Of a stretch of DNA of 43,400 nt, positions 3,321 through 32,193 are shown piece by piece. Under the pieces are notes generated by a model, which was not told the DNA's origin, searched no databases, and saw nothing but the letters and a program-made list of their open reading frames with translations. The stretch is from a virus. Numbering within the stretch: position 1 is the first letter of the stretch; each line of letters begins with the position of its first letter. The position numbers and the translations under genes were made by a program. The DNA lies in IMG/VR virus record IMGVR_UViG_3300010413_000064, positions 1 through 43,400 of that record. One strand, 5' to 3'.

Positions 3321-5198
3321 CTATGGCGTAATAAGGTATCCCGCACCAATCCGCCCCCATTCTTCCTGCGCCAGTGTCAGCGGAATGCTCGTTGGCGTAT
3401 CATTAAATACGAGAATCATATCGTTGGTGTATGGAGTGCCTATATTTTCAGTTGTGACTAAGTAAGGCAGCGAAACACCAGTCGTTATGCTATTAATTGT
3501 TATATCATTTGCGATTAGCTCAAGATGATAGTAATTAATGTTATTCGTAAACTCAAAGACTTTCCTATATACTGTACAGACAAAACCAGTCTGGTAGAAA
3601 TTTATATCATTAGTCTCAAATTCTGTGCTATTAATTGCATCATTAACAAACATTTTTGGACTGATAGCAGCATATTTATTTTGAGCAAACCCAGTTTGCA
3701 ATAATTCCAAATTAACTGATCCGCGCTTCCAGTCTACTGTTCGCTTAAGAACTTCCATCTGGATATATTCAAAATCAAAATTTCCAGTTGCTAAATTTGG
3801 TAGAAATTTGTTAGAAACACTAATGATATCTCCAGACTCAATCAAAAGCTCCTTAAAAAATGTTTTTACATTGAGCTTAATCGGTGGTGTGGCGTAACGC
3901 AGGAAAATACGTAGAGCAGACCTTGATAAAAAATCATCCGTATCCATATAAGATGAATTAATACCATGACTTTCAACTTCAAGCGTCCTATCACCAACAC
4001 CTCGACTATTAATTGACTCTGCATCAGCATACACATCTATTGATACAAAATCGTTCCCATCATAATTATATGAAAATTGGACCTCATTAATTAAATCAGG
4101 TAGATTTCCACTATAATCAGGGATGTCGATCATGTCATTTTCATTTAATGCAATAGTCGATAATGGTGGTAGAATTGGCCTATAGATTCTCGCTGAATAT
4201 TGGCCATTACCCTTAACAATTGGGTACATATTTAGCGGTTTATAAATCTCGTTTTGTAGAAAATCATTAGCTGAGGATCGCTCGGTGATCTCGAAATGGA
4301 ACGTAGCGGCTGTAGTTGGATAATAGGTATCACGGATCTGTTCAAATGTTTCGACGTCAATCTGGCTAACGGGGAGATCTAGTCCATAACCACCAGGTAA
4401 GAAATCATAAGGTCCCTTAGCCCCATCACCCCTATCACTAATTAGAAGACCAAGAGTTAATGTAATTGGGTTACCAGTTAGTATATTTGGATTTGTATCT
4501 GATGCCCCACGAAATACGTTCTTATTTAGCGCCCGAATTGAATCAGAGACCCCAATAGACCATGAGCCGTCTTTTTGGTAATCATAATCCGTAATTTCGC
4601 CAGTGTAGACAGTGAGCATTTCAGCTTCAGTTAGCCCTAAATAGCCAGCTTTAATAATACAACGCTTTTTTTGCAGTTTACCGGTAGCACCAGCAATCAT
4701 ACTAGTTACATATCCATCAACATCCTGTAATTCTATACTTAATGTTGATGATGATGTAGATCCTTCATCCGGACTAATAGAGTAGCCTCCGCCAGAGATG
4801 TAAGAGATATATGGCTTAGGAGCATTTCCAGATGGAATGGTGTATTTCGGAAGATATGTGCAGAATTTTTCATAAAGGTCGATGCGTACCGAGTCACCAA
4901 TAGCAACACTATCATTCGTCAGGCTCTCATAGAACGTTAAAGTATTATTGTCATTGGAGGCAATCGTTCGATATTCGGCATATCCAGCCGCTGTTCGCAC
5001 GAATGCAGTATAACCTACCCACTGGTTGAGTGTCCAGGTTGCGGATGAACACTCAACAAAGATAGGGAAGGATGGATTAACATCTGTAATAGTGTATGTA
5101 TCTTGGCCAACTTGAGTTTGAAACTCGGCTAAATATATCGGAGTTTTGTAAAACAGATCGTTCTTTGCCACAAATTGGGTTGATGGATTAAGAGGCAT
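3321..5198 (-). CDS. Large tail-tip/baseplate hub-like protein
   Basis: A 625-residue beta-rich protein encoded next to a smaller tail protein and upstream of a fibre-like protein. Residues about 25-110 form a compact module (TYTITDVNPSF...GYTAFVRTAAGYAEYRTI...NDNNTLTF) that recurs in altered form in two decoration-like proteins of this genome. Later parts (about 125-240) have the SYISGGGYSISPDEG and YTGEITDYDYQKDGSWSIGV patterns seen in phage tail-tip/hub proteins. It probably closes the tail tube and connects the fibres. No catalytic motif is seen. It overlaps the upstream gene by 11 bp. Confidence 0.6.
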   Translation of the reverse strand: MPLNPSTQFVAKNDLFYKTPIYLAEFQTQVGQDTYTITDVNPSFPIFVECSSATWTLNQWVGYTAFVRTAAGYAEYRTIASNDNNTLTFYESLTNDSVAIGDSVRIDLYEKFCTYLPKYTIPSGNAPKPYISYISGGGYSISPDEGSTSSSTLSIELQDVDGYVTSMIAGATGKLQKKRCIIKAGYLGLTEAEMLTVYTGEITDYDYQKDGSWSIGVSDSIRALNKNVFRGASDTNPNILTGNPITLTLGLLISDRGDGAKGPYDFLPGGYGLDLPVSQIDVETFEQIRDTYYPTTAATFHFEITERSSANDFLQNEIYKPLNMYPIVKGNGQYSARIYRPILPPLSTIALNENDMIDIPDYSGNLPDLINEVQFSYNYDGNDFVSIDVYADAESINSRGVGDRTLEVESHGINSSYMDTDDFLSRSALRIFLRYATPPIKLNVKTFFKELLIESGDIISVSNKFLPNLATGNFDFEYIQMEVLKRTVDWKRGSVNLELLQTGFAQNKYAAISPKMFVNDAINSTEFETNDINFYQTGFVCTVYRKVFEFTNNINYYHLELIANDITINSITTGVSLPYLVTTENIGTPYTNDMILVFNDTPTSIPLTLAQEEWGRIGAGYLITP

Positions 5199-8481: not shown

Positions 8482-9474
8482 TTAGACAGTGAACTTGAGC
8501 AGGGTTGCATTGTCAGCATAGATAGGAGAAACAACTGCACCACTCTCATCAACGGACTTGATCAACTGCTCACCAACATATTGGCGAACACGATACACAT
8601 CACCACGGACAGCTTCTTCGCGGTACTGTTCGACTACCATACCGGAAGCATCACGGGTCCACTCGAAGATACGACCAACACCACCAGAACGAAGATCCAT
8701 GGAGCCAATCTTGATCAACATAGCATAATCATTAGACCAAATATCAGTAATATTTGCATCAAGTCCAAAACCAGCGGTATCCTGAAGGCCACCGGCAACG
8801 ATTAGACGGGGCACGCCCAGGCACTGTGCGATTTGTGCTGCGGTAGCATTTTGCACCTGAAGACCAGGGAAAGTGTACTTTATCTGTTCAATAATCTCAT
8901 TGGATTGCGTAAGATTATTATAGACAGACCAGTTAACTACAAGGGCATCAGGGAGCATTCCACTTTTCAGTCGGAAAGTATTTAACTCCCCTTTGATATC
9001 AGTAATAGGCGTAGACGAAGAAGGAATATTCCAATCAGAAGTACTCGTAGGTGTGAAGTTCGTCTCATTAAACAGCAGAGCAGCGATACGACGTTCCTGT
9101 GCACGCAGTAGGAAACCAGCAGCACGACGTGCAGCCAACATGTCAGCTCCACCAGGCATCTCTTGGTCCATCAACTCACGTTCGACATCATCGATAACTT
9201 CTTCAACGCCATATTCGTAGGTAATGTACGTTCCACGTTCGTACTCATAGTTCGTCCGAATATAAGCAGACTTAGGTGCACGAGCAGGGTTCACGTTCTT
9301 CATGAGGGCTTCTTTAGGGATAACAGGGTACACACCAGCATTTTCATTCGTGCGGAAAGTAGGAAGTAGTGTACGACCAATAAAACCAGCATCAAGAGAA
9401 TTTTCAAAGAATTCCACCACTGCACCACCAAGGTCAGGACGGCGAATGACGGTATTAAGTTTGGGACTCGGCAT
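8482..9474 (-). CDS. Major capsid protein, HK97-fold (lambda gpE-like)
   Basis: A 330-residue protein. It has the features of lambda E-type capsid proteins: early LPTFRTNENAGVYPVIPKEA-like beta strands, a long spine helix region with AARRAAGFLLRAQERRIAALL (about 110-140), and a C-terminal beta domain. The C-terminal part contains VVNWSVYNNL (A-domain entry) and GMVVEQYREEAVRGD. The length is close to lambda gpE (341). No delta/scaffold domain is present at the N-terminus; a scaffold may come from the C-terminal part of the protease gene. A good GGAG ribosome site precedes the ATG and a hairpin follows the stop. Confidence 0.85.
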   Translation of the reverse strand: MPSPKLNTVIRRPDLGGAVVEFFENSLDAGFIGRTLLPTFRTNENAGVYPVIPKEALMKNVNPARAPKSAYIRTNYEYERGTYITYEYGVEEVIDDVERELMDQEMPGGADMLAARRAAGFLLRAQERRIAALLFNETNFTPTSTSDWNIPSSSTPITDIKGELNTFRLKSGMLPDALVVNWSVYNNLTQSNEIIEQIKYTFPGLQVQNATAAQIAQCLGVPRLIVAGGLQDTAGFGLDANITDIWSNDYAMLIKIGSMDLRSGGVGRIFEWTRDASGMVVEQYREEAVRGDVYRVRQYVGEQLIKSVDESGAVVSPIYADNATLLKFTV

Positions 9475-9506: not shown

Positions 9507-10667
9507 TTAGTGTAGGATTGCGGGATATTCGAATTCTACCCCATACAGGTAAATGTCTGTTGTTAATGAAGTTACGACAGTAAATTCAAGATAAAACGAT
9601 ATTTGTTCTGGATGAAAGGTTAAGCTTGAAGCATTGAAGTCATTAATTACTAAAGATCCCAGTGTAGGCCTATTAGTCAGTGTGCTATTAGTTATTAGTG
9701 GGTTGTTATAATACAGCCCTTTACCAGTACAGCTTGATCTACCCTTGAATGTAACATAATCCGAAGGATGCGGGTTCGTGTACCAGAGTTTAACTAGACA
9801 GGCAGTAACGTCTGTGTAATCCAAACGTTTAGGTGGCCTGTAAGTTAGAATCATTTGATCGGTAGTACCAGAAGGTGTCCCATTTGCTAAGCGCACTACG
9901 TGAGTTCCAATGGCGACAGAGTTATATGCTAAATGAAGAATCCCACCGTCAGAGGACATAATTCCACCAAAGTTTGCAATTGACATTGGTGAACCATTAA
10001 GATTAACTCTTTTAGCGTGATCGAAAGAAACAAAATCTGAAGTTAGATGTGTGTCATAGAGATGATTACCGAGTTGGGTGAATGCAGCTTCAACATTGTC
10101 AGTGGTGTAGTAATTTCCAGAATCTACGAGAGCAACCTGGCTACCGGTCAGATTAGCATCAAAATCCTGAAGATCACTGATATCCGAATCTTGCGTAGCG
10201 TTTTTCAAACCTACTTCTTGAAGGGCGCCTTCAACATTATCAGATGTATAATAGCCACCAGCGTCAGTAATTAAAACCTCATCAGCTTCTATAGATGGTT
10301 CCTTTTCCCCGTAGATGACTGTAACGATCTGACCAGCAGTTGCAGAGTGAGAGGCGCGCCCGATGTATAGATCCGTAAGTTCATCGTTAATATACCCGCC
10401 GGTAGATGTCCCATAGACATAGTTACCATTGCCTATATTTCCATTTGTTTCTATTTCATACGAGCCTTCGGAATTGAAAGGCTTTACGGTAATAAGATCC
10501 CCAGCCTTGGCAGAAGTCAGTGTAACACCCAGCATATCCTTCGCAGCTGTTGCGGCATACTGAACTTCACGAGGAGTGGTGGCACTGCCAGTAACGAGAC
10601 GAACAATACGATTAATTGCTAAATCCGTATAGGCAGTAAACGTTTGTGAACCCGAAACGTAAGCCAT
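9507..10667 (-). CDS. Decoration protein fused to a fibre-like domain
   Basis: A 386-residue protein. Residues 1-110 resemble the decoration-like repeat family of the following genes (KDMLGVTLTSAKAGDLITV, then a beta-barrel-like GNGNYVYGTSTGGYI). Two near-copies of a linker then follow: ITDAGGYYTSDNVEGALQEV (about 132-151) and LVDSGNYYTTDNVEAAFTQL (about 179-198), motifs familiar from trimeric fibres. The C-terminal ~170 residues form a beta-rich domain with aromatic residues. It could be a capsid surface fibre anchored through the decoration fold. It sits directly before the capsid gene, so is likely made in quantity. Confidence 0.6.
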   Translation of the reverse strand: MAYVSGSQTFTAYTDLAINRIVRLVTGSATTPREVQYAATAAKDMLGVTLTSAKAGDLITVKPFNSEGSYEIETNGNIGNGNYVYGTSTGGYINDELTDLYIGRASHSATAGQIVTVIYGEKEPSIEADEVLITDAGGYYTSDNVEGALQEVGLKNATQDSDISDLQDFDANLTGSQVALVDSGNYYTTDNVEAAFTQLGNHLYDTHLTSDFVSFDHAKRVNLNGSPMSIANFGGIMSSDGGILHLAYNSVAIGTHVVRLANGTPSGTTDQMILTYRPPKRLDYTDVTACLVKLWYTNPHPSDYVTFKGRSSCTGKGLYYNNPLITNSTLTNRPTLGSLVINDFNASSLTFHPEQISFYLEFTVVTSLTTDIYLYGVEFEYPAILH

Positions 10668-10678
10668 CGTATACTCCT

Positions 10679-11113
10679 TTAAGGTGCGTAGAACCCATCA
10701 AAAACAAAACGACCAGTTAAAATCATAGCTTCAACTACTTTTCCACTTCCAATTCCAGCTGCCTGCTCATTCAAGATTGGTGTGACAATTATGCCTGTAG
10801 TTACTTCGCCAGCACCAGTATGGCAGGAGAAATACCCATTATTTTCAGTGGCTACCCAGTAGCCTGTCCTAACGTTAATCTCTTCGCATTCCACTTTAGC
10901 CATTACAAGAGTTCCATACGGTGGCATTATTGGAATAATATCCCCAGCTTGCCCAGCTTCAAGTGTAATACCAATCCACGCAGATGATTTATCAAACTGA
11001 TCGGTTACAATCGGATAGTTTCCAGTGTGCGGAGTTTGGAGAGGACGAACTCTTAAGCCCTTCTGGACGGCTTTTGCCAATTGCACTGGGAGTGCTCCAA
11101 AAGTTTTATGCAT
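10679..11113 (-). CDS. Capsid decoration-like protein (array member)
   Basis: A 144-residue protein. It has the array pattern: an IG-(I/V)-T segment with 'A-G-Q-A-G-D-I-I-P-I' (WIGITLEAGQAGDIIPIM), a strand pair around EEINVRTGYWVATENNGY, and a terminal VVEAMILTGRF strand. This is the beta-rich layout of DUF2190/gpD-like capsid cement proteins. It is one of seven consecutive genes with this signature between the protease and the capsid protein. Confidence 0.55.
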   Translation of the reverse strand: MHKTFGALPVQLAKAVQKGLRVRPLQTPHTGNYPIVTDQFDKSSAWIGITLEAGQAGDIIPIMPPYGTLVMAKVECEEINVRTGYWVATENNGYFSCHTGAGEVTTGIIVTPILNEQAAGIGSGKVVEAMILTGRFVFDGFYAP

Positions 11114-11125
11114 TATTATACTCCA

Positions 11126-11593
11126 TTATCCAGTCGCAATCTGTGGGGCAAGTCTTAATATTAAGATATTGATCCGAGATCCAGATTGGGATACTGGGAG
11201 GGTTTCTGTCCCCACATAGTGGCCTAGCAAATTATGTGGGATGGTTGGATTACTCTCAGCTGTCATAGTCCCATCGGTATGCTTTGGAGGATAAATACCA
11301 GTACCAGGGGTTAGTGGAGTATCCCAATCACATTTAGCTGATACTACACCTGACGTAGTTAGTAGCACTGTAACTAATTCAGGTGGAAAATTATCATGCG
11401 CGGCCTTAGCAGACGTAACAGCAACACCATGCATCGTACGAAAGCTAACACCACCAGACGCAAGCGTTTTAATTGCATGTATGCCTGGGGGGTCAATTAT
11501 AGCACCATTTAGAAAATTAAAGTATACTGCATCCCCAATCTCAAAATCGACATCAGCCCATGCAGATACTACAATCTGATTTAAATTATCCAT
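11126..11593 (-). CDS. Capsid decoration-like protein (array member)
   Basis: A 155-residue protein with the same signature: MHGVAVTSAKAAHDN, then a short barrel (ELVTVLLTTSGVVSAKCDWD), a GTGIYPPKHTDGTMTAESN strand pair and a final NILILRLAP strand. Start ATG at 11593 follows GGATATACC, a weak ribosome site, close behind the previous stop. It likely binds the capsid surface; no enzymatic motif is seen. Confidence 0.5.
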   Translation of the reverse strand: MDNLNQIVVSAWADVDFEIGDAVYFNFLNGAIIDPPGIHAIKTLASGGVSFRTMHGVAVTSAKAAHDNFPPELVTVLLTTSGVVSAKCDWDTPLTPGTGIYPPKHTDGTMTAESNPTIPHNLLGHYVGTETLPVSQSGSRINILILRLAPQIATG

Positions 11594-11602
11594 GGTATAT
11601 CC

Positions 11603-12253
11603 TTAATATGGCTGTCGATCAAATTGTGATAGTTGGCGCAGCATAAGTACTTCTGCATATTTTTTGTCAGTGCCAGATTCCTGCACATATTCTAAGCAAA
11701 ATCCGATCATAGGCCTAATAATCCTGATTTGCATTGGAAGGGTCCAGTTAGTAAGCGGATTGGGAACATTAAGAGTGGTAAATGTAACTGATGCAGAATC
11801 ATTTCCAAGAACTTTATAGTATGTACCACGTCTAGGGTGCCCCGTAGGCCCCTGGATACTAACAAAATAATTCAACCAGTAATTAGATAACCAGTTAGGG
11901 GATGGGGAAATAGTAAATGTTACCTGTTCTGGAGTACCCAGGTCAACAGTATTAACACTCACTACAGCCGATGAAGTTATACCTTCAATTTGCCCAGTAT
12001 CTGTAACGACAACAATCTGACCTGCGAATAGCTCTTTACCATTGGCTACTTCGGCATAAATTGTTCCCTCTGTCATTGTTGTAACCGATACCATGCCTTC
12101 GGCAGGCACATCTTCCATGCTCCATCCGATGATTGGGTCAGCGATTGAGGTAATGTGTTTTACAGTACCATCGCTGGACAACTTTAGTGCCCGTCCTTTG
12201 ACTATTTCAGTGGGATGGGCTCTAAAGCTTAGATTCGAATTTATATACCCCAT
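11603..12253 (-). CDS. Capsid decoration-like protein with inserted module
   Basis: A 216-residue protein. I place the start at the ATG at 12253, which has a GAGGGG ribosome site; the open frame extends further upstream only as a shadow of the previous gene. Residues 1-95 carry the array pattern (GRALKLSSDGTVKHITS, IIGWSMEDVPAEGMVSV, GQIVVVTDTGQIEG) and the C-terminus ends with YAEVLMLRQL. Between them lies a ~65-residue insert (about 107-175, PNWLSNYWLNYFVSIQG...YYKVLGNDSASVTF) whose pattern also occurs in the 241-residue array member and in the large tail protein. Confidence 0.6.
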   Translation of the reverse strand: MGYINSNLSFRAHPTEIVKGRALKLSSDGTVKHITSIADPIIGWSMEDVPAEGMVSVTTMTEGTIYAEVANGKELFAGQIVVVTDTGQIEGITSSAVVSVNTVDLGTPEQVTFTISPSPNWLSNYWLNYFVSIQGPTGHPRRGTYYKVLGNDSASVTFTTLNVPNPLTNWTLPMQIRIIRPMIGFCLEYVQESGTDKKYAEVLMLRQLSQFDRQPY

Positions 12254-12263
12254 TGTATCCCCT

Positions 12264-12680
12264 CTAAATATAATAAGCCCTCGTGAATGCAACAAAGCAT
12301 TTAGAGATATTACTTGAAAAGCCAACAGACGGGCCAACTTGAACAACGTATCCAATTCTTCGTGCATATATAGGATCGGGATTATTCGAAAGAGATCCAG
12401 GAGTTGCCTGCCCAATAGTTAGGCCCTGCCCAGGCTTTGGACTCGTATAGCAGAAAGCTGGCAGGAGCCCAGAAAAAGGAAGCCTAACTGTGACGAGTTC
12501 ACCAGCTTTTACTTCCTCGAACGCTACACCAAGAATTATATCGGTGGCAGCCCCAGTCATTTCGACAAGGGGGATCCCGTGGACATCGTTTGCTGGATCA
12601 GCAACCACGGTTTTCACTGTGGCATAAAGATTAATATCCTCAGCAGCAACACAGGTAATTGATTCATTATGGTGAGGCAT
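12264..12680 (-). CDS. Capsid decoration-like protein (array member)
   Basis: A 138-residue protein with the clearest DUF2190-like signature of the array: ILGVAFEEVKAGELVTVRLP, preceded by an N-terminal strand with TCVAAEDINLYATVKTVV and followed by GQGLTIGQ and a terminal CFVAFTRAYYI strand. This pattern (GVA...A.AGE.VTVRL) marks small capsid cement or decoration proteins. The stop is 11 bases before the next array gene and the start overlaps the previous stop by one base. Confidence 0.6.
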   Translation of the reverse strand: MPHHNESITCVAAEDINLYATVKTVVADPANDVHGIPLVEMTGAATDIILGVAFEEVKAGELVTVRLPFSGLLPAFCYTSPKPGQGLTIGQATPGSLSNNPDPIYARRIGYVVQVGPSVGFSSNISKCFVAFTRAYYI

Positions 12681-13405
12681 TAGACCCGCCCTCCTTTCAA
12701 GACCAGCATTTCAACTATCTGCGGATTAGCGGCTCCAGTATAAGAGGACATGTTTATCGCCGTGCTCAGATCCAGATCAGGAGATGCATCGTCGTATAGA
12801 TCAACACCAATGACGTCACTTCCACCGTCCCCAGGAAACCAATGATCATGAATATCGGGGACTGTAAGTGCAAGAATAAATGAGTCATTATCGAAAACCG
12901 TGTAAAATTCATCAATATGATAGCCAGATGTAATTTTCACAGTTTTACCGGCAAATTGACTTGGAGTCCAACCGGGATTCGGATTGAATTTTAATCCAAC
13001 GGTATCGCCAGGTTCCTCAGCTACTTCGAACGTGTCCGAGGAAAAGATGACTTCCAAATCGTGAACAAAAGCCTCCCCATTCCAATGATAATGGCCACCA
13101 GCATCGTGACCGTGAGGATCGAGCACTAGCGCTGGCATAGTACCAGCACCCCAATAACGGACAGTAACTGATTCTCCAGCACTTGCGGCATTCATCGCCA
13201 CACCAATATAAGTCGTGCGGGGATCATTCTCTGCAATGTTAGTATCGGCAGCAGCTGGTTTAACCAAAGGGATATGATTCCAAGTAAGTGGATCATTATC
13301 CGTTCGTGGTACGAAATCAACAGCAGTCCCCATTTTGACAGTATATGTAGGGGCAACGATAGCGCTGAAATCTTGGTACAAGTATTTGCCATCATTTATA
13401 GTCAT
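12680..13405 (-). CDS. Capsid decoration-like protein with inserted module
   Basis: A 241-residue protein. The core (YIGVAMNAASAGESVTVRYW, about residues 66-85, and the final IVEMLVLKGGRV) matches the array family. A ~90-residue insert (about 110-215) contains NPGWTPSQFAGKTVKITSG and FYTVFDNDSFILAL, the same W...F.G..V.I....Y.V..ND.....L scheme as in the 216-residue member. A His/Asp-rich stretch (HGHDAGGHYHWNGE) could bind metal. The insert is probably surface-displayed; that is inference. Confidence 0.55.
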   Translation of the reverse strand: MTINDGKYLYQDFSAIVAPTYTVKMGTAVDFVPRTDNDPLTWNHIPLVKPAAADTNIAENDPRTTYIGVAMNAASAGESVTVRYWGAGTMPALVLDPHGHDAGGHYHWNGEAFVHDLEVIFSSDTFEVAEEPGDTVGLKFNPNPGWTPSQFAGKTVKITSGYHIDEFYTVFDNDSFILALTVPDIHDHWFPGDGGSDVIGVDLYDDASPDLDLSTAINMSSYTGAANPQIVEMLVLKGGRV

Positions 13406-13417
13406 AATAGCCCCTCC

Positions 13418-13852
13418 TTATACTTCCAGTGCAGCTTTCTGTGAAAAGATATAAACTTCACAAAGAGAATTTTCTTCTTTATCAGCTTCAAGAGCAAGCC
13501 CAATATAACGGTATGTACCATGGGCGGCATTATCATTGGTCATACGCCCACTGTCATCGTCCTGCACCCATAGTGTATCGCCAATATGGAATTCATTTCC
13601 ACTATCAGCAACTGTGCCAATTTTAGCCTCAATAGTACCATCCAGCATAGTTCTTAAAGTTGTGATATCTCCTGACTTCTGGGAACGAATCGTCCAACCG
13701 ATAATGCTATCATCATGGCCAGCTGGACGACCCTTAATCATCCCAAATTCATCGTTGCCATCTGGAGAGACGGCAATGCCCTGATCCCACGTATTATCCG
13801 TGTTCGGGCCATCACCGAGCACAACAGTTAAATGAGTGTCGCGTCTCGGCAT
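13418..13852 (-). CDS. Capsid decoration-like protein (array member)
   Basis: A 144-residue protein, first of the array in transcription order, directly after the protease/scaffold gene. This is the position of gpD in lambda, a trimeric cement protein that locks expanded capsids. It shows IIGWTIRSQKSGDITTLRTM, DGTIEAKIG, then FHIGDTLWVQDDDSGR and a final LCEVYIFSQKAALEV strand. The overall order of strands equals that of the other six members. It is the best positional candidate for the main gpD equivalent. Confidence 0.55.
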   Translation of the reverse strand: MPRRDTHLTVVLGDGPNTDNTWDQGIAVSPDGNDEFGMIKGRPAGHDDSIIGWTIRSQKSGDITTLRTMLDGTIEAKIGTVADSGNEFHIGDTLWVQDDDSGRMTNDNAAHGTYRYIGLALEADKEENSLCEVYIFSQKAALEV

Positions 13853-13865
13853 TTTTATCTCCTAA

Positions 13866-15176
13866 TTAGTCGCGTCCTACGAATTTTTTATAGGCTTCAG
13901 GAAAGTTTTTCATGACAAATTTCGTAGCAGCAATTGTCGAACATTTCCGTTCTTCTTTAACCTTATCAATTAGATCCATGTAACCCATCTCAGAGGTCAT
14001 TTGTGTGGTCTCAGCCAAGGCTTTATCAGACTTAATAACAGGAGCCTCAGCAGCCATTTCTTTAAGAGTATTCATCTTCATACCCTTCTCTGACATCCAG
14101 AAATATTTAAAGGCTTCACCCTCACTCATCCCTTTTTCAATCGCTTCTTTGGTGAGTGAAATAGGAGCGGAGGCAGCGAAAATAGCTGAAATTCTGTCTC
14201 GCTCTTTCTTCATGGCAGCATCCATATCAGCCTGAGTATACTTAAATTCTGCTTCAACCTTCAGCTCTTTAATTGATTCTTCTTTGGATTCTTCTACAAA
14301 AACTGCTGGTTTTTCTGTTTGGGTAACAACACCTTCAGCCTTTGTTTCCTCACAATTACAATCTTCACCACAATCACCAGAGCAGTTGATATGCATTTTT
14401 TTGATTTCGCCCATACTAAATGTATCTCCTTTATGCCTATTCAACCAATCCTGGACTCTCTCCCTGGTCCAGATAGGCTTTTTAAAAATTAATGTTTGCC
14501 CAACCATAGAGCCGTCGCCATTTTTAAGTTTCCCTACTACCATATCAATTCCCTCTATCCCCCGGAATTGAATTGTTCTAAAGGTTCCCTCTTCGAAAGT
14601 ACCAGGTTCACGCAGGCGGTGACGGAATGATGTGCTAGTTTCATCAAGTGGTTTGTTAACTATAAATTCCATTGCTTCCGCATTTAATTCTTTTGCGAAC
14701 GAATGAACTGATGTATCAGTATCTACACCCCAAGAGCATATGGATACTTCACCAACATAAGATTTATCCCAAATTTGCATTCCGGTAGGAACTGCAAAGC
14801 CATTGATAAGTTCTCCATTAGAGGCTTCACGAACTGATTCTGGAGCAATACCAACTGAGCACTGAAGTGGGATTCCTTCTTTCAAAAGAGCAGCCACTTC
14901 AATCCCATCTTTTGTTGTTTTCGAAAACTTTCCACGAACAATAAACCCGCGTTCATCTTTAAATGTATCTCCATATCCAACGATACGGTCGCTCTCATGC
15001 TCACGGAGAATGATTACCTTATTCCTCTTAGACTCCATACCATCCAAACTGAAGATTCCTTTCCAGTCGCCTTTCTCCATAACCTTACCAGTATAGCCAA
15101 CAAGCTCAAACTCATAAGGATTATCATCGGTATGGGAGAATGTTTTAACATCAGCACTCAAATTAATATTGTGCAT
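13866..15176 (-). CDS. Prohead protease with C-terminal scaffold-like region
   Basis: A 436-residue protein. Residues 1-160 resemble HK97-type prohead serine proteases: ILREHESDRIVGYGDT supplies the likely catalytic His and LQCSVGIAPESV the Ser, followed by GEVSICSWGVDTDT. Residues about 185-255 form an extra domain (FKKPIWTRERVQDWLNRHKG). The C-terminal part (YTQADMDAAMKKERDRISAIF to the end) is helical and scaffold-like. The ATG at 15176 has GAGG eight bases upstream. The reading frame continues upstream for 57 codons, into a conserved-looking segment broken by one TGA. Confidence 0.75.
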   Translation of the reverse strand: MHNINLSADVKTFSHTDDNPYEFELVGYTGKVMEKGDWKGIFSLDGMESKRNKVIILREHESDRIVGYGDTFKDERGFIVRGKFSKTTKDGIEVAALLKEGIPLQCSVGIAPESVREASNGELINGFAVPTGMQIWDKSYVGEVSICSWGVDTDTSVHSFAKELNAEAMEFIVNKPLDETSTSFRHRLREPGTFEEGTFRTIQFRGIEGIDMVVGKLKNGDGSMVGQTLIFKKPIWTRERVQDWLNRHKGDTFSMGEIKKMHINCSGDCGEDCNCEETKAEGVVTQTEKPAVFVEESKEESIKELKVEAEFKYTQADMDAAMKKERDRISAIFAASAPISLTKEAIEKGMSEGEAFKYFWMSEKGMKMNTLKEMAAEAPVIKSDKALAETTQMTSEMGYMDLIDKVKEERKCSTIAATKFVMKNFPEAYKKFVGRD

Positions 15177-15348: not shown

Positions 15349-16890
15349 CTAAGTGCCTCCAAATGATGTTGTTGATTTAGGTGCCAAGGCATTATCGTGA
15401 CCCTTCAGATCGTAATAGATCTTTAGACCCAATTCTTCCGCATAAGTATCTTCATGCCGACGTTGGGCGAATACATCTTGCCACTCTTTTCCAGTTGTAG
15501 CCAGCTCAATAGCATACGTTGACAGCCCAGCGTTAATACGCATCATTGCGGCTTCCGTCTCCGCTCTCTCATCAATTTGACCCCACGGAGAACCAATCCA
15601 AGTAGCCTCTTTTATATAGTTGAATTTAGTTTCGTACTGCAATCTTGTGATTGGGAGCTCACCTCTTAAATAGGCCTCTTCTAACACCATTTCGTAGATT
15701 GGCTGACAAAACTTTTCTGCGAACCATTTTCGGTAATAAGCAAACTGACGACGAGCTTCAAGTAGGGCTGCACGAGCTGATGAATAGTTGGTCTTACTGA
15801 AATCTTTGACCAGCAACTCATATGGCATTCCTATACTCATACCAATAATCCGAAGGATCGATTCGACAAAGGTTCCGAGAGATTCATTACGTTTTGGATC
15901 TACCACATTAATCGACTCACCTGGAGCAAGGTAATTAATGACACCAGGTTCGATATCTTGGATCCTATCACCAGTTCCATATTCCGTATCTGACATCATT
16001 GCCTGTGCAGCGGTGATAGGGTCAGTTTTCTGAATGAATACTGACAGACACGCAGAGACGCGAGCACTAACAAGTTCGGCTTCGAGATATTCTCCTAATT
16101 CTTCGAATTTATCAAGGAGCGGAGCAAGCTTAGGGATTCCACGAGTTTGATTGGGGCGCTGACTCTCGAAGATATGTAGTACCATAGGACGGCCTTTACT
16201 ATCTCTAGCTTGGACGGAATGTGGCCGGAGCTCAGAATATTTGCCACCGAACTCTCGTTTCTTATAGATTTTAAGCCAATATTTAGTTGGACTACCGTCT
16301 CCATCGAATGTGATCCCATTAACAGTTTGAGGATCTGGAGTCCAATTTGTATCAAGCTCTTCAGATTCAACCATCTGAAGGCATCTACCATAGGGCCTCC
16401 AATCTGCTTCATTCCACGTTGGAATGATTATCGCCTCACCATCGATGAGAATCTTACTAAAAGCTAAGCGCTGAAACTCATCGAAATTAAGGATGTTAGC
16501 TTTATCAGCATAGCGTTTCCAGCCATTGAAAATATCTTCTGCCTTCTCACGAATTTTTGTGGCTTTTTCCTCAGAGATACCAAGATCAGAAGCTTTTATT
16601 GAGGACTGGACTTGAAGACCAGCACCAATAACACTCGTCATGAATGTATCGATTACCGCATTGGCTACAGGATCATTGCGAACCAGATCACGGGAACGGT
16701 AGCGTAGGGTATTTAATTCATAGACTGGCGGAGTCGTATCCATCATGGATGACGTGATCCAGTCAGAGCGCAAACGGTTCTGCGACGCCCCGCTATAATA
16801 CCTATCCGTGTTAAAGTATTTTGCACTTTCTTTATCTGGTATCGCTTTCTTGCTGCCTAAGAGGCCAGATATGAAAGTTTTAATACCCAT
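15349..16890 (-). CDS. Portal protein, lambda gpB-like family
   Basis: A 513-residue protein. Typical portal features are the early RSRDLVRNDPVANAVIDTF segment, the GEAIIIPTWNEADWRPYG strand region, the clip/stem helices (FEELGEYLEAELVSARVSACLS) and ILRIIGMSIGMPYELLVKDF, followed by NYSSARAALLEARRQF, a hallmark of lambda-type portals. It forms the dodecameric ring through which DNA enters and leaves the head. The start at 16890 has GGGAGATACT just upstream; an ATG at 16905 is less likely. It overlaps the gpW-like gene by 11 bp. Confidence 0.9.
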   Translation of the reverse strand: MGIKTFISGLLGSKKAIPDKESAKYFNTDRYYSGASQNRLRSDWITSSMMDTTPPVYELNTLRYRSRDLVRNDPVANAVIDTFMTSVIGAGLQVQSSIKASDLGISEEKATKIREKAEDIFNGWKRYADKANILNFDEFQRLAFSKILIDGEAIIIPTWNEADWRPYGRCLQMVESEELDTNWTPDPQTVNGITFDGDGSPTKYWLKIYKKREFGGKYSELRPHSVQARDSKGRPMVLHIFESQRPNQTRGIPKLAPLLDKFEELGEYLEAELVSARVSACLSVFIQKTDPITAAQAMMSDTEYGTGDRIQDIEPGVINYLAPGESINVVDPKRNESLGTFVESILRIIGMSIGMPYELLVKDFSKTNYSSARAALLEARRQFAYYRKWFAEKFCQPIYEMVLEEAYLRGELPITRLQYETKFNYIKEATWIGSPWGQIDERAETEAAMMRINAGLSTYAIELATTGKEWQDVFAQRRHEDTYAEELGLKIYYDLKGHDNALAPKSTTSFGGT

Positions 16891-17119
16891 AGTATCTCCC
16901 ACCATCGCTTACGCGGCGAAATCTTGCCTTATTCTGGAATCCTCCAGGACTATTTAATAGATCATACTGATCCAGTAGATTGCTTTCATATTTCATCAAA
17001 TAATCCAAACGCGCTCTAACTACGCTTCCTGCTTGCGTAGTTAGTTCCTGGCTAGTCAGTACTTCGCTAATAGCTGATTGGACTTCTTCGATCCTTTCCT
17101 CGAGGGTCTTTATTGCCAT
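16880..17119 (-). CDS. Head-tail joining protein, gpW-like
   Basis: A 79-residue protein between large terminase and portal, the exact position of gpW in lambda. It has the two-helix pattern LEERIEEVQSAISEVLTSQE and SVVRARLDYLMKYESNLL. The small beta hairpin of the family would be the TQAGSVV region. The ATG follows AAGGAG at good spacing. It overlaps the downstream portal and upstream terminase genes by about 10 bp each, so the three are coupled. Confidence 0.75.
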   Translation of the reverse strand: MAIKTLEERIEEVQSAISEVLTSQELTTQAGSVVRARLDYLMKYESNLLDQYDLLNSPGGFQNKARFRRVSDGGRYYGY

Positions 17120-19047
17120 TGTCTTCTCCTTAACCAGCCTCCTTGAGTTCTGCGCTTAACGTCGCTCAAATATCTGGATTGCTGTTTTAGATCTTCATCG
17201 AATTGCGCAAATTGCTCATCTACTTTGGTGACTCCTACTTTATCTTTGACCATGCGCAATCCTCCTCCAAATTGTGGATCGATAAGTGCAAGGTTGTAAA
17301 CACATGTATCGAGGTAGTCATTACGCTTAGAGATCTTTTTCCATTCCCATTTTCCTTTTTTATCGACAACTTTCTTTTCTGCGCTTAGGTGTTTAAACCA
17401 GTCGTTTCCAGTATCACTATGGAAGAACAGCCTTTGTGAATCTCCATCGTCTTGGGCAAGGCGCCAGAAGAGAGTATCTTTAAACTCATCGACATTAAGG
17501 TGGTATAATGCAAGTCCACCTGGCATTGCTTTACCTGAGGGCATTTTATCGAGTATGGATAACTTAACGCGCATTCCGGCAGATTGAATTCCCATTCCTT
17601 TGATTCCGAAGATTTTTCCTCTGCTGTGCTGCCTAATGAATTCATATGTTGCCTCCGTTTGGCTGAATAGGCTACCATCTTCGCCTTGACGTGTATTACC
17701 TCCGGTGTCTATTGCAGCCCGCCAAATTCCCATAGTTTGGTCTGAACCATTAATGGGGTATTCGTTTTTGAAGACTAGGTCTTTAACTTCATTGTATGTG
17801 CTTAGAAGTCCGTAATGAATCATCCAGCCTGTTCCCTGTTTATCCCAAGCGAATACACTGTAATAAAATCGATCGCGTTGAACGTCTATTCCAGCAGTAA
17901 GTACAACAGCGGTTTCAGGGACAACGACTGGTGCAAGCTCACATACATTCCGTTTCAGTCCTTCAGTCTCAACGCCTACACTATCCTCGGCCCATTCTTC
18001 TGCCAACCAACCTGTGATAAAGTTCTTGAGTTTTGTCCTGTCTCCTCGGCATTCGAGGAATTCATACGCAATATCACCCCATTTCAAATCGAGGGAGTTA
18101 AGAGAGTTAAGTCTAACCCCAATCGAGGTGATGTCTTCTGGAACTGGCGTTTCGTCTGCTCGCAACCACTTACCAGCGCGGAGCATCTTAGGTTTAGCAT
18201 AATCGTCGATTGCCCCTTCGCAATACGGACACTGATAGAATGCATGCTTTCGGGCTTGGATCCAGAACTCTGGGTCGTCTTTATCAGTGACATCAAAAGG
18301 GAACTTATCCTCTCCGAACTTAAGGTTTCCAAATTCAAGCACTTGAAGCTTTCCGCAATAAGGACAAGGGATATAGTACTCAGCTTGAGATTCACAACTT
18401 TGGTGATATTTCGCAATTGGACTATCCTCAACAGATGGGGATGAGACCATCACTATCTTCTTGGTATACGGAAAAGTCTTTGTTCTATCAATGAGATACT
18501 TAACAGGATCACCAGCCGTAAGCGTTGAGGGCCAGTCTTTGAGTTCGTCAGCAAATACGACCTCAACAGACGAGGAGCTAAGCTGTGACGATGACTGCGC
18601 AGAAGCAAGGTAAAGTACGCCACCAGCATAATGTTTTTCTGATATCTTCCATTTCTTTAATTGTAGGTTTTTCAGGATAGGGGAAGCTTGCACCATCGGA
18701 TCAATTCTGGTCGCACTAAACCGCTCCACTGATTCTGAAGTTGGCAGGGCGAGCATTATTGGTCCAGGGCGCTCTGCCATTGACCATGCAAGCATGCACA
18801 TCATTGCATTGGTCTTACCTATCTGTGTCCCTGCCTTAAAGACTATCATTCTGACTTTCGGTGCCGAAAACCAGTCCATGAGTTGCCGCAAGTACGGGAC
18901 TCGGTCATTATTGAAAGGTTGTCCCGCAGCCGGGGAGTCGAACGGAGTCATGATACGATACCGCTCGGCCCATTGGCTAACGGTTATTTCAGAGCTCGGC
19001 TTCAAAGCCACGATTTCATCTTTAAGTATCTGACTTTTGATTTTCAT
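17110..19047 (-). CDS. Terminase large subunit, GpA family
   Basis: A 645-residue packaging motor and nuclease of the lambda gpA type. The ATPase part has VFKAGTQIGKTNAMM (about residue 75, Walker A region) and SVEVVFADELKDWP (Walker B-like with catalytic Glu). A Zn-binding-like pair of CxxC motifs follows (CPYCGKL; CPYCEGA). The nuclease part has VLTAGIDVQRDRFYYSVF with the conserved Asp. I place the start at the ATG at 19047, since the frame upstream overlaps a 53-residue Zn-finger gene. GpA-family terminases act on cos sites, which fits the paired genome ends. Confidence 0.9.
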   Translation of the reverse strand: MKIKSQILKDEIVALKPSSEITVSQWAERYRIMTPFDSPAAGQPFNNDRVPYLRQLMDWFSAPKVRMIVFKAGTQIGKTNAMMCMLAWSMAERPGPIMLALPTSESVERFSATRIDPMVQASPILKNLQLKKWKISEKHYAGGVLYLASAQSSSQLSSSSVEVVFADELKDWPSTLTAGDPVKYLIDRTKTFPYTKKIVMVSSPSVEDSPIAKYHQSCESQAEYYIPCPYCGKLQVLEFGNLKFGEDKFPFDVTDKDDPEFWIQARKHAFYQCPYCEGAIDDYAKPKMLRAGKWLRADETPVPEDITSIGVRLNSLNSLDLKWGDIAYEFLECRGDRTKLKNFITGWLAEEWAEDSVGVETEGLKRNVCELAPVVVPETAVVLTAGIDVQRDRFYYSVFAWDKQGTGWMIHYGLLSTYNEVKDLVFKNEYPINGSDQTMGIWRAAIDTGGNTRQGEDGSLFSQTEATYEFIRQHSRGKIFGIKGMGIQSAGMRVKLSILDKMPSGKAMPGGLALYHLNVDEFKDTLFWRLAQDDGDSQRLFFHSDTGNDWFKHLSAEKKVVDKKGKWEWKKISKRNDYLDTCVYNLALIDPQFGGGLRMVKDKVGVTKVDEQFAQFDEDLKQQSRYLSDVKRRTQGGWLRRRQWQ

Positions 19048-19183
19048 TGTTTGTGCACCATAGCTTTTCCATGCATTTGTTGCAGAAAGTACTACGCTGA
19101 TCACCATTAAAATGTAGTATCACTGGTATCCATTTAAATTGAGTATCTTCTTTTATTTGGTCACAACATACACATTTTCTCAT
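19022..19183 (-). CDS. Small CxxC Zn-finger-like protein (53 aa)
   Basis: A 53-residue protein from ATG 19183 that overlaps the exonuclease stop as ATGA and the terminase start by 26 bp. It contains C4-x2-C7 and C34-x2-C37 (MRKCVCCDQ and FCNKCMEK), a four-cysteine Zn-binding layout shared with two other small genes (29058-29222 and 42889-43047). Function unknown; such proteins often contact host or phage nucleic-acid enzymes. Confidence 0.65.
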   Translation of the reverse strand: MRKCVCCDQIKEDTQFKWIPVILHFNGDQRSTFCNKCMEKLWCTNNENQKSDT

Positions 19184-20298: not shown

Positions 20299-22149
20299 TT
20301 AGTGTGTTTCTGCCCAATTACCCCCGATTTTCGCCTCTCCATCAAGAGGGCATTTGAACCGCAGATCTATACCAGCTTTACGGATGGCCGCGACGGATAA
20401 TTCCTTACATCGTTCGGCTTTATCCTCGTCGATTTCTATCTGATATTCATCGTGGATATTAGCTACAAACTCATAATGTTTACCCGGGATCCATCCTTCT
20501 TCTTGGAACATAAGATCTGCATTAATTAAAGCCTGCTTCATAATTACCGCACCGGCCCCCTGAATTAATAGATTAAGCGCTGAATGCTCGCTACGTGGGG
20601 TGTATTCCCTACCGTCTAGGCCTTTCAGTACGCGTTGTTTCTTATTCGGGTGACTCATCCGATTAGATATAATATTTTGTAGTTTTCGTAAAGCAGGTAC
20701 TTTAAGATAAAACGATTCTTTTAATTTCTTACCAACTTTAGCTAAATGATCACTATTGGCCCTAACTTTAGAGTTATCACCAGATTCAACTATCTGCCCT
20801 ATTTTGGCATCACCAGCTCCATAGATGAATGCATATATGAATGTTTTTGCCTGATTACGCGTAGCCAGACCAGCAGCTTCTTGGTTAGTGGTATGAATAT
20901 CTCCTTCGAGAATCTTACGGGCATATTCGCCACCATCAAATCCGGCGAGATAATGAGCTAAACCTCGAAGTTCGAGCCCACTTGCATCGCATCCAACCAA
21001 TTTTTTCCCAGCGGGGACTCTAAAAAGCGAACGCGATTTCTCTCCATAGGGTGAATAAACAGCAGGGACCTGAGCCACATTAGGGCTACTATGTGTACAC
21101 CTACCACTAACAGCACCATTAGTATTAACTCTACCATGAATTCTGCCATCCTTTCCAACAGCTTTGAGCCATGCTTGATTTCCATCAGCCAGCATTCCTA
21201 TACGTTTTGTCAACAGAAGATATTCTGACAGGAGCTTTGCCTCCGGAAAATCCATACTTTCAAGCACTTGCTCATTAATAACCGGTATGCCAGTCTCGGT
21301 GAGTTGAGTAGGAATCCAGTTGTATTTTTTACGAAACCGCTCAGCGATATGCTGACGCGAATTAGGATTAAACTCTTGGTAATCGATCTTACAATATTCC
21401 GCACCCTTTACCAGACCATCTCTCTTACGGTTTACCTTTGAGGTAAAGACCTTTCCATTATTCAATGGAACGATGATGGTAGGGAACACTTCTTTCATTT
21501 TGTCGGCTATCTGAGATTGACGTTCACGAATCTCAACCATTAGATCAATCGCGGCGCGTTCATCGAACAGAAAGCCGTGACGCTCTTGACGTGAAATAAT
21601 CCACGCGAATCCGAGCTCAAGATCGATTGCCTTTTGGGAGTAGTTTTTATTGAGAATCATCTGGTATAGGGCGCATAGTACATTGACGTCCTGTATACAG
21701 TAATCTTCCATCTCCTGGGACCAATGATCCCAAGCGTTCTCTCGCTTTCCGTATTCACCCTTCCTTACGCCCAGACGATATCCATAAGCTTCTAGCGAGT
21801 GCGAACCAATAAGGCGCGCTGGGAGTTTCTTAGTTTTTGCACGGCCATAGTCATGCTCTCTAATGTTCGGCCAAATCAGCCGGCCAAGAACCAGAGTATC
21901 GATGACCTTTCCCTGAGGCTTGAATCCATAGAGCATATCAAGCGCGGGCACGTCGAAACCGAAGGCGTTATGGGCCACGATTTCATCAGCTTCCTCAAGC
22001 ACTCTAACGACCTGCTTCATTTTAACAGGATCGTTAACGTTCCCAATTAATACATTATTAGTACCAAATTCTTTTGCAACTATGCAATGCATACGATCTA
22101 ACTCGTCAAGCAAAGCGTTCGTTTCAATATCAAATATCCACGTAGCCAT
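20299..22149 (-). CDS. DNA polymerase, family A (T7-like) with 3'-5' exonuclease
   Basis: A 616-residue replicative polymerase. Proofreading motifs are intact: FDIETNALLDE (Exo I), AHNAFGFDVPALD (Exo II) and YCIQDVNVLCALY (Exo III). Polymerase motifs follow: VGCDASGLELRGLAHYL (A), NQAKTFIYAFIYGAGDAKI (B) and ANIHDEYQIEID (C). T7 polymerase has 704 residues; the shortfall of about 88 is close to the size of the T7 thioredoxin-binding insert in the thumb, so this enzyme may lack it. A strong AGGAGG site precedes the start. The gene follows an HNH endonuclease gene by one base. Confidence 0.93.
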   Translation of the reverse strand: MATWIFDIETNALLDELDRMHCIVAKEFGTNNVLIGNVNDPVKMKQVVRVLEEADEIVAHNAFGFDVPALDMLYGFKPQGKVIDTLVLGRLIWPNIREHDYGRAKTKKLPARLIGSHSLEAYGYRLGVRKGEYGKRENAWDHWSQEMEDYCIQDVNVLCALYQMILNKNYSQKAIDLELGFAWIISRQERHGFLFDERAAIDLMVEIRERQSQIADKMKEVFPTIIVPLNNGKVFTSKVNRKRDGLVKGAEYCKIDYQEFNPNSRQHIAERFRKKYNWIPTQLTETGIPVINEQVLESMDFPEAKLLSEYLLLTKRIGMLADGNQAWLKAVGKDGRIHGRVNTNGAVSGRCTHSSPNVAQVPAVYSPYGEKSRSLFRVPAGKKLVGCDASGLELRGLAHYLAGFDGGEYARKILEGDIHTTNQEAAGLATRNQAKTFIYAFIYGAGDAKIGQIVESGDNSKVRANSDHLAKVGKKLKESFYLKVPALRKLQNIISNRMSHPNKKQRVLKGLDGREYTPRSEHSALNLLIQGAGAVIMKQALINADLMFQEEGWIPGKHYEFVANIHDEYQIEIDEDKAERCKELSVAAIRKAGIDLRFKCPLDGEAKIGGNWAETH

Positions 22150-22738: not shown

Positions 22739-24409
22739 TCAGAAGTCGCTAAAGTCGTCATTCGTTCCATCCACTATTTGCGGTTTAGTTGCTATATCAT
22801 CAAATTCATCAGGCTCAACAGGCGTTGGTTTGAAATCGTCGCTGAGCTCTTCTAACCGATTTGTTGTTTTGTTGAAAAACAGCTTGAACGTTTCGCCAGT
22901 AGCTTGACCAGTGTAACGGTCTTTGAGGATCCGGAATGTAGACGTGTGTCTCTCCGTGTCGTCCTCTGCTTGCTGGTCGCGCTCCAAGGCCCAAAGTGCA
23001 TCAGCCCATTGGCCAATGGCTCGAGATCCTCTGAAGTGCCTGATAGTGACTCTCCCGCCTTCTTCGTGCGAAGACTTGGAATCAGTTGTCGAAAGGTGGC
23101 TAATAAGGAACAACGTGAGCTTGAGCTCTCGTACCATACTAGCCAGCTTTGTCATAATCATATCAATTTCACGACGTTCGTCAAGTTTAGGGTCACCTGA
23201 AGTAAGAGCAGCAAGATGGTCAAGAAAAATGTAGCGAACGCCGCATGACACCACCAAGTATCTGATTCTGCTTTTGATTTCTTCAAATGAAGTAGAGCCA
23301 TAATGATTAAACAGATAGAATTTACCAGAGCCAAATAACCTATCAAAATATCCACGCTTTTCCTCCAATCCTACCTGCGATGTTGGTAGGTGTAATGGCT
23401 TATTTGCCATAATTGACATCATACTCAGCGCGGTCATGTTATTTTGCTCTTCGAGGAACAATAGACCAACCTTTTTTTCGTGCTCCATTGCCAAGTGATA
23501 CGCTATCTCTTTGTAAACAGTAGTTTTACCAAGTCCGGTCCCGGCTCCAAGCACATATATTTCGCCTTCGCGAATTCCATACATGAGTTTAGTAAGTTTG
23601 TCGAAAGGGTAGGAAAGCCCCATATCGATAGGATGTTCAACATCCTCCCATAGATTAGCGGCATTAACAATTCCACTAGGTATAAACTCCTTTGCTTGCC
23701 AAATAGAATTGATAAGTTCGTTAGTCCGACCTGCCACCAACATTTCGTTGGCGTCTTTAAGAGGCATTTGACCAATTTTAATTTTGCCGGGAGACAGTAG
23801 CGTAGAACACTTCTGGGCTGCATCTCGTCCGACATCATCCATATCAAAAAGAAGTATAACGTTCTCAAATGACTCTAAGTAATCAAGTTCTTGCTTGAAG
23901 ATCTTCGGGGCATTCTGAGCTCCATGTGGTAAAGAAACGACGGGCCATTTGTTTCCCTGCGCTTGAGATACGGAAAGGGCATCTATCTCTCCTTCAGTTA
24001 CGACGAGCATCTTACCGCCAGACTTCCAAAGATGTTGTCCATAAAGTGGGGCTTTTCCACCAAGCCATACGAACTTCTTGTCCTTCGTTCGAAGCTTCTG
24101 ACCGACGAGTTCGCTATCTTTATAATAGTTAGCAATCTGGACTGGATTTCCCATATATTCGCCAATTTTGTATCCCCATTTTTCGCATGTATCTTGATGC
24201 AACCCCCTACTTGGCAGTTGTCGGCACTTACCAAGTACTGGTTTAAACCCTTTTGACATAGTCATTACCTTAACAGTTGATGTGCCTGTTTTATGGCTTC
24301 TCCCGCAGCTAAAACAATACGTATGATCACTGTATCCACTGAGGGCATCGCTACTCCCACAATCGGGGCATGGTAAATGTGCCGATCTCAAAACACTATC
24401 TTCACCCAT
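22739..24409 (-). CDS. Primase-helicase, T7 gp4-like
   Basis: A 556-residue bifunctional replication protein. The N-terminus has a Zn motif (PCPDCGSSDALSGYSDHTY with CFSCGR), then a TOPRIM primase core (VVTEGEIDALSVSQ, about 120; LLFDMDDVGRDAA, about 175). The DnaB-like helicase follows, with GAGTGLGKTTVYKEIA (Walker A), YIFLDHLAAL (Walker B), LFLISHLSTTD and FRGSRAIGQWADALW. The C-terminus is acidic and ends DDFSDF, as expected for polymerase contact in the T7 system. AAGGAG precedes the ATG. Confidence 0.93.
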   Translation of the reverse strand: MGEDSVLRSAHLPCPDCGSSDALSGYSDHTYCFSCGRSHKTGTSTVKVMTMSKGFKPVLGKCRQLPSRGLHQDTCEKWGYKIGEYMGNPVQIANYYKDSELVGQKLRTKDKKFVWLGGKAPLYGQHLWKSGGKMLVVTEGEIDALSVSQAQGNKWPVVSLPHGAQNAPKIFKQELDYLESFENVILLFDMDDVGRDAAQKCSTLLSPGKIKIGQMPLKDANEMLVAGRTNELINSIWQAKEFIPSGIVNAANLWEDVEHPIDMGLSYPFDKLTKLMYGIREGEIYVLGAGTGLGKTTVYKEIAYHLAMEHEKKVGLLFLEEQNNMTALSMMSIMANKPLHLPTSQVGLEEKRGYFDRLFGSGKFYLFNHYGSTSFEEIKSRIRYLVVSCGVRYIFLDHLAALTSGDPKLDERREIDMIMTKLASMVRELKLTLFLISHLSTTDSKSSHEEGGRVTIRHFRGSRAIGQWADALWALERDQQAEDDTERHTSTFRILKDRYTGQATGETFKLFFNKTTNRLEELSDDFKPTPVEPDEFDDIATKPQIVDGTNDDFSDF

Positions 24410-32186: not shown

Positions 32187-32193
32187 GTGTCTC

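Follow-up and report, generated by a model that had tools for sequence, protein, structure and literature searches.

Phage decoration layers usually consist of one protein repeated over all equivalent sites. Here, we describe a tandem array of cement-type genes in a 43.4-kb virus record (IMG/VR record IMGVR_UViG_3300010413_000064; hereafter the window), in which the interval between the head maturation protease and the major head protein comprises seven intact genes (9507-13852, minus strand), numbered g1 to g7 from the protease side towards the capsid gene. The genes stand in tandem order, their expansion is confined to a single lineage in which they have long been maintained, and three of them carry added modules that evolve fast. 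We propose that cement genes multiplied in this lineage, that each copy became fixed with its own role, and that together they would form a multi-component head surface, a reading to which we assign a probability of about 0.68.

Seven diverged relatives of a cement family

The original prediction held that seven consecutive, strongly diverged genes with a common signature lie between protease and capsid, and all of this was borne out, with the start of g4 alone corrected. Each gene is preceded by a Shine-Dalgarno-like sequence. Because the g4 open reading frame as listed, from a TTG at 12415, overlaps g3, and because the g4 ortholog begins at a position equivalent to the ATG at 12253, we place the g4 start at that ATG. 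When leave-one-out profiles were searched against the 38 other proteins of the window and 2100 shuffled sequences (Z=1000), g1, g2, g3, g4 and g7 ranked first (E 1.7e-4 to 1.5e-9). These profile searches did not recover g5 and g6; single-sequence searches join g5 to g3 (E 4.5e-4) and g6 to g7 (E 0.01), with none of 300 shuffles scoring as well. Pairwise links g1-g4, g1-g3, g2-g3, g2-g7, g3-g5, g3-g7 and g6-g7, likewise unmatched in 300 shuffles, cover all seven proteins. The common signature thus exceeds chance, for g5 and g6 by single-sequence searches only, and the divergence is strong, with identities to g3 of roughly 20-30%.

We compared the seven proteins with a profile of 30 cement-domain sequences, 28 from phages with a single cement gene and two from g7 and its ortholog. 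Direct hhalign probabilities are 91.6% for g5, 91% for g4, 84% for g3, 38% for g1, 17.5% for g6 and 11% for g2, and the capsid protein, as a negative control, gives 0.1%. Against an earlier cement profile built without array proteins, g7 reaches 97.5% (E 7e-12). Two of the weaker members are tied in through paralogs, g1 through g4 (83%) and g2 through g3 (86%). Profile comparison thus shows homology to cement proteins that is strong for g3, g4, g5 and g7, linked for g1 and g2, and weak for g6. In the wide sense of a cement superfamily, then, the profile relation is direct for g3, g4 and g5 and runs through a paralog for g1, g2 and, at 60-70%, g6, and the genes lie between the head protease and the major capsid gene.

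The decoration-like identity originally predicted stands insofar as these are cement-type genes related by profile; likeness to gpD extends only to the superfamily level, and the family is DUF2190/Phage_cement_2 (PF09956; phrog_122 head decoration, phrog_673). Members of this family likewise lie between protease and capsid, but usually as a single gene, whereas the window has seven diverged paralogs, three with extra modules. By profile g7 is a member and g3 to g5 are relatives. Against the curated PF09956 cut-off of 24 bits, g7 scores 19.0 bits in the window and its ortholog in a related locus, L010, scores 27.4 (L numbers designate related viral loci). The L010 orthologs of g2 and g6 give sub-threshold PF09956 matches (17.2 bits at best; g2, E 0.0066), and neither the window nor the L010 versions of g1, g3, g4 and g5 match a Pfam cement family. 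Since g1 to g6 fall below the curated cut-off, we call them diverged relatives and do not file them as PF09956 members. Profile comparison clearly places g7 in DUF2190/Phage_cement_2, with an additional part resembling a head fibre. The window g4 also matches PF23982, the minor capsid family of XM1 gp53, at 22.5 bits (1.1e-4), under that family's 27-bit cut-off; its L010 ortholog gives no match.

The spread of these values bears on a narrower reading, in which only g7, plus perhaps one or two others, is cement, and the remaining cement-derived proteins have moved to portal-vertex, neck or non-virion jobs, for example as assembly factors. Such a shift would fit the restriction of the strong single-cement-profile match to g7 and the distance of g1, g2 and g6 from the cement profile. 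We nevertheless consider it unlikely, because comparison with a profile of that type gives 84-92% for g3, g4 and g5, all seven genes remain between protease and capsid, and, among the L010 versions, g2 matches phrog_122 head decoration (9.8e-4) and g4 weakly matches a head fibre family. A scaffold role for g1 to g6 is also unlikely, since the profile links point to cement; the protease has a charged C-terminal extension that, on inspection of its sequence, could be the scaffold.

An old expansion maintained in one lineage

A capsid-alignment scan yielded 55 viral loci; scans with single capsid or portal proteins yielded few or none. Counting cement-profile matches between protease and capsid in the 49 loci with a complete interval, we find one gene in 45, two in one (tandem copies, 80% identical), and seven in three (the window, L009 and L010). 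One small gene also occupies the interval in all five sampled cultured phages that have a related portal and a separate protease, in agreement with the original claim that a single cement protein is the norm. The array phages make up a clade with 100/100 support in the capsid tree; a single cement-fibre gene is present in its sister, L011, and a single cement gene in each of L012, L063 and L064. No match was found by tblastn of the window capsid, g7 or the L010 g7 core against cultured phages, and the Riflebacteria genomes searched held nothing beyond the original prophage. Our searches of the open-access literature yielded no account of seven cement paralogs in tandem.

L009 and L010 come from two metagenomes and belong to a single phage species (4 differences in 11.3 kb), and their gene order is identical to that of the window: portal, protease, seven orthologs, capsid. 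Scans with g1 and g6 gave no loci beyond these two contigs. Between the window and L010 the capsid is 69% and the portal 60% identical, and the array orthologs are 52% (g1), 42% (g2), 54% (g3), 37% (g4), 38% (g5), 48% (g6) and 34% (g7) identical, with nonsynonymous divergence (dN) of 0.41-0.69 and synonymous divergence (dS) of 1.3-3.2 or saturated. When the cement cores are placed in a tree, every window gene groups with its own L010 ortholog (ultrafast bootstrap at least 98), so the duplications are older than the divergence of the two lineages; a branch with 98/99 support sets the array proteins apart from all 28 single cement proteins. As the same seven genes recur in the same order in a distant relative, the copies have been maintained, and the retention of that order over saturated synonymous distance suggests that they likely have distinct, maintained roles.

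This conservation bears on two further readings. Were the seven proteins a redundant mixed coat, they would all bind competitively at the same three-fold sites, and the result would be a stochastic or dose-dependent mix of homo- or heterotrimers with a variable surface. The capsid-facing core signature common to all seven is compatible with such a coat, as is the operon-like run of genes, each with its own Shine-Dalgarno-like sequence and with no excess of terminators inside the array (1 found, 5 expected). One-to-one orthology and fixed order suggest instead roles that are not interchangeable, and redundant copies would be lost or homogenised; a mixed coat is therefore improbable in our judgement. 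The second reading, a variable cassette, would make the array a stock of alternative surface proteins that switching or recombination brings in and takes out, in the manner of phase or antigenic variation. A shorter array in a further relative, L069, does indicate that gene content shifts between lineages, yet the same seven genes in the same order in two lineages, a Shine-Dalgarno-like sequence for every gene with no terminator between genes, and the absence from the window of near-identical copies, the expected trace of recent recombination, largely contradict a cassette, and with gene order conserved between lineages we reject it as very improbable. On this comparative evidence (the same seven genes in L009/L010, a single gene in the sister), the array is an old, maintained expansion in one lineage.

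In L069 (5722-7035) the protease is followed directly by a g4-like gene of 140 amino acids without the insert, then by a g5-like and a g6-like gene and the contig end. This array is shorter, without g1 to g3, and at least three of the seven are lacking; since it starts at the g4-like gene, array content varies between close lineages. The L069 portal is 71% identical to that of the window and its protease is nearer that of L010 (72%), a sign of mosaic exchange. Elsewhere in the family, L077 (9302-10168) has a tandem pair of cement genes 80% identical to each other, the second with a Ser/Pro-rich tail, which is a recent duplication in another phage, and L038/L040 provide another two-gene case. 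Because of these copies, we conclude that tandem duplication of cement genes recurs in the family.

Added modules and a proposed head surface

Between the window and L010 the cement cores of g2, g4 and g7 are 42-54% identical, against 24-26% for their added modules (g2, core 53-54% and insert 24%; g4, 42-44% and 26%; g7, 46% and C-terminus 24%). Faster-changing modules fit exposed parts carried on a constrained, capsid-bound core, although relaxed constraint alone would give the same contrast. By eye, and at sub-threshold scores, the g2 and g4 inserts have in common a weak 'W..n.w.G..v.i.sG....y.v..ND' pattern. A similar pattern, also seen by eye and sub-threshold, occurs in a tail protein of the window (3321-5198, at about 4899-5057). 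A small beta-type module pattern that looks alike in this tail protein and two cement paralogs suggests a mobile surface module.

The 'YYTSDNVEGALQEVG' motif of g7 is found in phage fibre-type families as well, and a motif like it is present in the single cement-fibre genes of relatives (L011, L020-L022, L064, L073). The C-terminal part of g7 is probably an exposed fibre head. A profile of the C-terminal parts of the relatives' cement-fibre genes does not match the g7 C-terminus, and for this reason we claim no orthology between them. The single cement genes of relatives often bear differing C-terminal additions, fibre-like or lectin-like in appearance (L001 8755-9900, L019, L034, L044). Given this variety, cement proteins of this capsid family seem often to serve for display.

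We propose that an ancestral single DUF2190/Phage_cement_2 gene, probably the present g7, was multiplied by tandem duplication in one lineage, and that the copies diverged until each was fixed with its own role. Their common core of roughly 110 residues would most likely bind the exterior of the expanded capsid as trimers, at or near the three-fold and quasi-three-fold junctions. On this model g1, g3, g5 and g6 would be bare cement subunits, g2 and g4 subunits enlarged by an inserted module, and g7 a subunit with a C-terminus like that of a fibre protein. Because of these inserts and the g7 fibre part, the head would show several surface modules on a common cement layer, and judging from the genes its surface probably has several components.

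Known heads supply partial parallels. Among solved structures, the cement profile best matches the capsid stabilization protein of HFTV1 (E 0.0011), gp18 (PDB 8QSY), which sits as trimers on the outer interfaces of major capsid protein trimers in a T=7 head (PMC12494034); unlike the array, HFTV1 has one protein at these sites, and its surface diversity comes from separate turret proteins, not from cement paralogs (PMC12494034). The phi29 capsid fibre gives a weak full-length match to the cement profile (E 0.55), not significant on its own. This head fibre, gp8.5 (PDB 6QYY), has a capsid-bound base bearing a fibre, as we propose for g7, but is encoded by a single gene outside any paralog array. 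The XM1/TW1-type decoration protein, to which the g4 match is sub-threshold, is in XM1 (gp53, PF23982) a single homotrimeric protein (PMC10457771). Multi-component heads are known from Sf14, with two decoration proteins, Milano, with one mCP and two linking proteins, and crAss001, with an auxiliary protein as well as two head fibres on distinct hexons, a position-specific partition (PMC11821841, PMC10491603, PMC10172136). Like the proposed surface here, these capsids carry more than one type of surface protein; they do so with two to three mostly unlike proteins, in contrast to seven tandem paralogs of one family.

A stricter version would make the seven paralogs position-specific parts of one lattice, at the extreme one for each quasi-equivalent decoration site of a T=7 asymmetric unit; the true three-folds would then carry a homotrimer and the quasi-three-folds two heterotrimers. 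Seven is indeed the number of decoration sites in such a unit, as in XM1 (PMC10457771) and HFTV1. We give this version little credence: the agreement of seven genes with seven sites may be coincidence, as a single gene suffices in relatives and at least three of the seven are missing from L069. If true, quasi-equivalence, which is normally accommodated by one flexible protein, would here have been solved by gene duplication.

Several points weigh against our proposal of a multi-component surface. Since L009 and L010 are the same species, the seven-gene lineages amount to two independent data points, and long-branch attraction could be the source of the split in the cement tree. All of g1 to g6 lie below the Pfam cement cut-off, and g6 is the least certain member (hhalign 60-70% to g3 and 17.5% full-length to the cement profile). 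AlphaFold2, run on g1+g2 and on g4+g5+g6 as in-frame runs read through stop codons with L010 orthologs as alignment, and thus on five of the seven proteins, gave no usable models (pLDDT, predicted local distance difference test, 36 and 32), their quality being too low to tell a common fold, such as the gpD-like beta-tulip, from different ones. Virion presence, trimers, binding sites and display function we infer from genes alone. Low pairwise identity, a weak g6 and uninformative models are also what would be seen if unrelated small beta proteins stood side by side and shared a motif by chance; set against the leave-one-out ranks, shuffle controls and profile links, such a coincidence is scarcely credible.

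As the seven-member family is intact and in order, each copy probably has a job that the others cannot do. The array is thus a natural system for how a capsid surface becomes multi-component: it lets one ask whether duplicated cement proteins form hetero-oligomers or are partitioned between quasi-equivalent sites, and how exposed modules swap on a fixed capsid-binding core. It would also supply ready-made orthogonal display scaffolds.

Feature coordinates and the rest of the phage

Table 1. Array genes, their parts and neighbouring head genes in the window (aa, amino acids; id, identity; LOO, leave-one-out; ORF, open reading frame; SD, Shine-Dalgarno-like sequence).
Feature	Coordinates	Strand	Evidence
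g1, short cement-like protein, 144 aa, first after protease	13418..13852	-	ORF and SD; LOO profile E 2.1e-6; hhalign to g4 family 83%; L010 ortholog 52% id
g2, cement-like core with inserted module, 241 aa	12680..13405	-	hhalign to g3 86%
g2 insert module, residues about 113-206	12788..13069	-	weak pattern similarity; fast-diverging
g3, short cement-like protein, 138 aa, hub of the similarity network	12264..12680	-	LOO E 1.5e-9; hhalign to 30-sequence cement profile 84%, E 7.4e-6
g4, cement-like core with insert, 216 aa	11603..12253	-	hhalign to cement profile 91%, E 1.1e-6
g4 insert module, residues about 93-178	11720..11977	-	absent from L069 ortholog; 26% id vs 42-44% core
g5, short cement-like protein, 155 aa	11126..11593	-	hhalign to cement profile 91.6%, E 8.2e-7; phmmer to g3
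g6, short cement-like protein, 144 aa, weakest membership	10679..11113	-	phmmer to g7 E 0.01; hhalign to g3 60-70%; L010 ortholog PF09956 17.2 bits
g7, cement protein with C-terminal fibre-like extension, 386 aa, adjoins capsid gene	9507..10667	-	hhalign to single-cement profile 97.5%, E 7e-12
g7 cement domain, residues 1-120	10308..10667	-	PF09956 and phrog_122 match; 46% id to ortholog
g7 conserved 'YYTSDNVEGALQEVG' linker motif	10203..10307	-	phrog_7154/4184/9012 matches at residues 126-152
g7 C-terminal part, variable	9510..10202	-	24% id to ortholog vs 46% core
Major capsid protein (context)	8482..9474	-	phrog_1005 4.6e-31
Head maturation protease with charged C-terminal extension (context)	13866..15176	-	phrog_3244 2.4e-13
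Lambda-family portal (context)	15349..16905	-	PF05136 1.4e-87

Outside the array, the window pairs packaging and head genes of lambda type (gpA terminase, lambda portal) with replication genes of T7 type, namely single-subunit RNA polymerase, T7-like helicase-primase, family A DNA polymerase and a ribonucleotide reductase large subunit (coordinates given jointly for this gene mix: 32194-34653, 22739-24409, 20299-22149, 30543-32201, 17110-19107). A tape-measure-like protein is encoded at 37015-38943, about 30 kb away from the block of genes that follows the capsid; this distance may reflect circular permutation of the record or a split of the tail genes.
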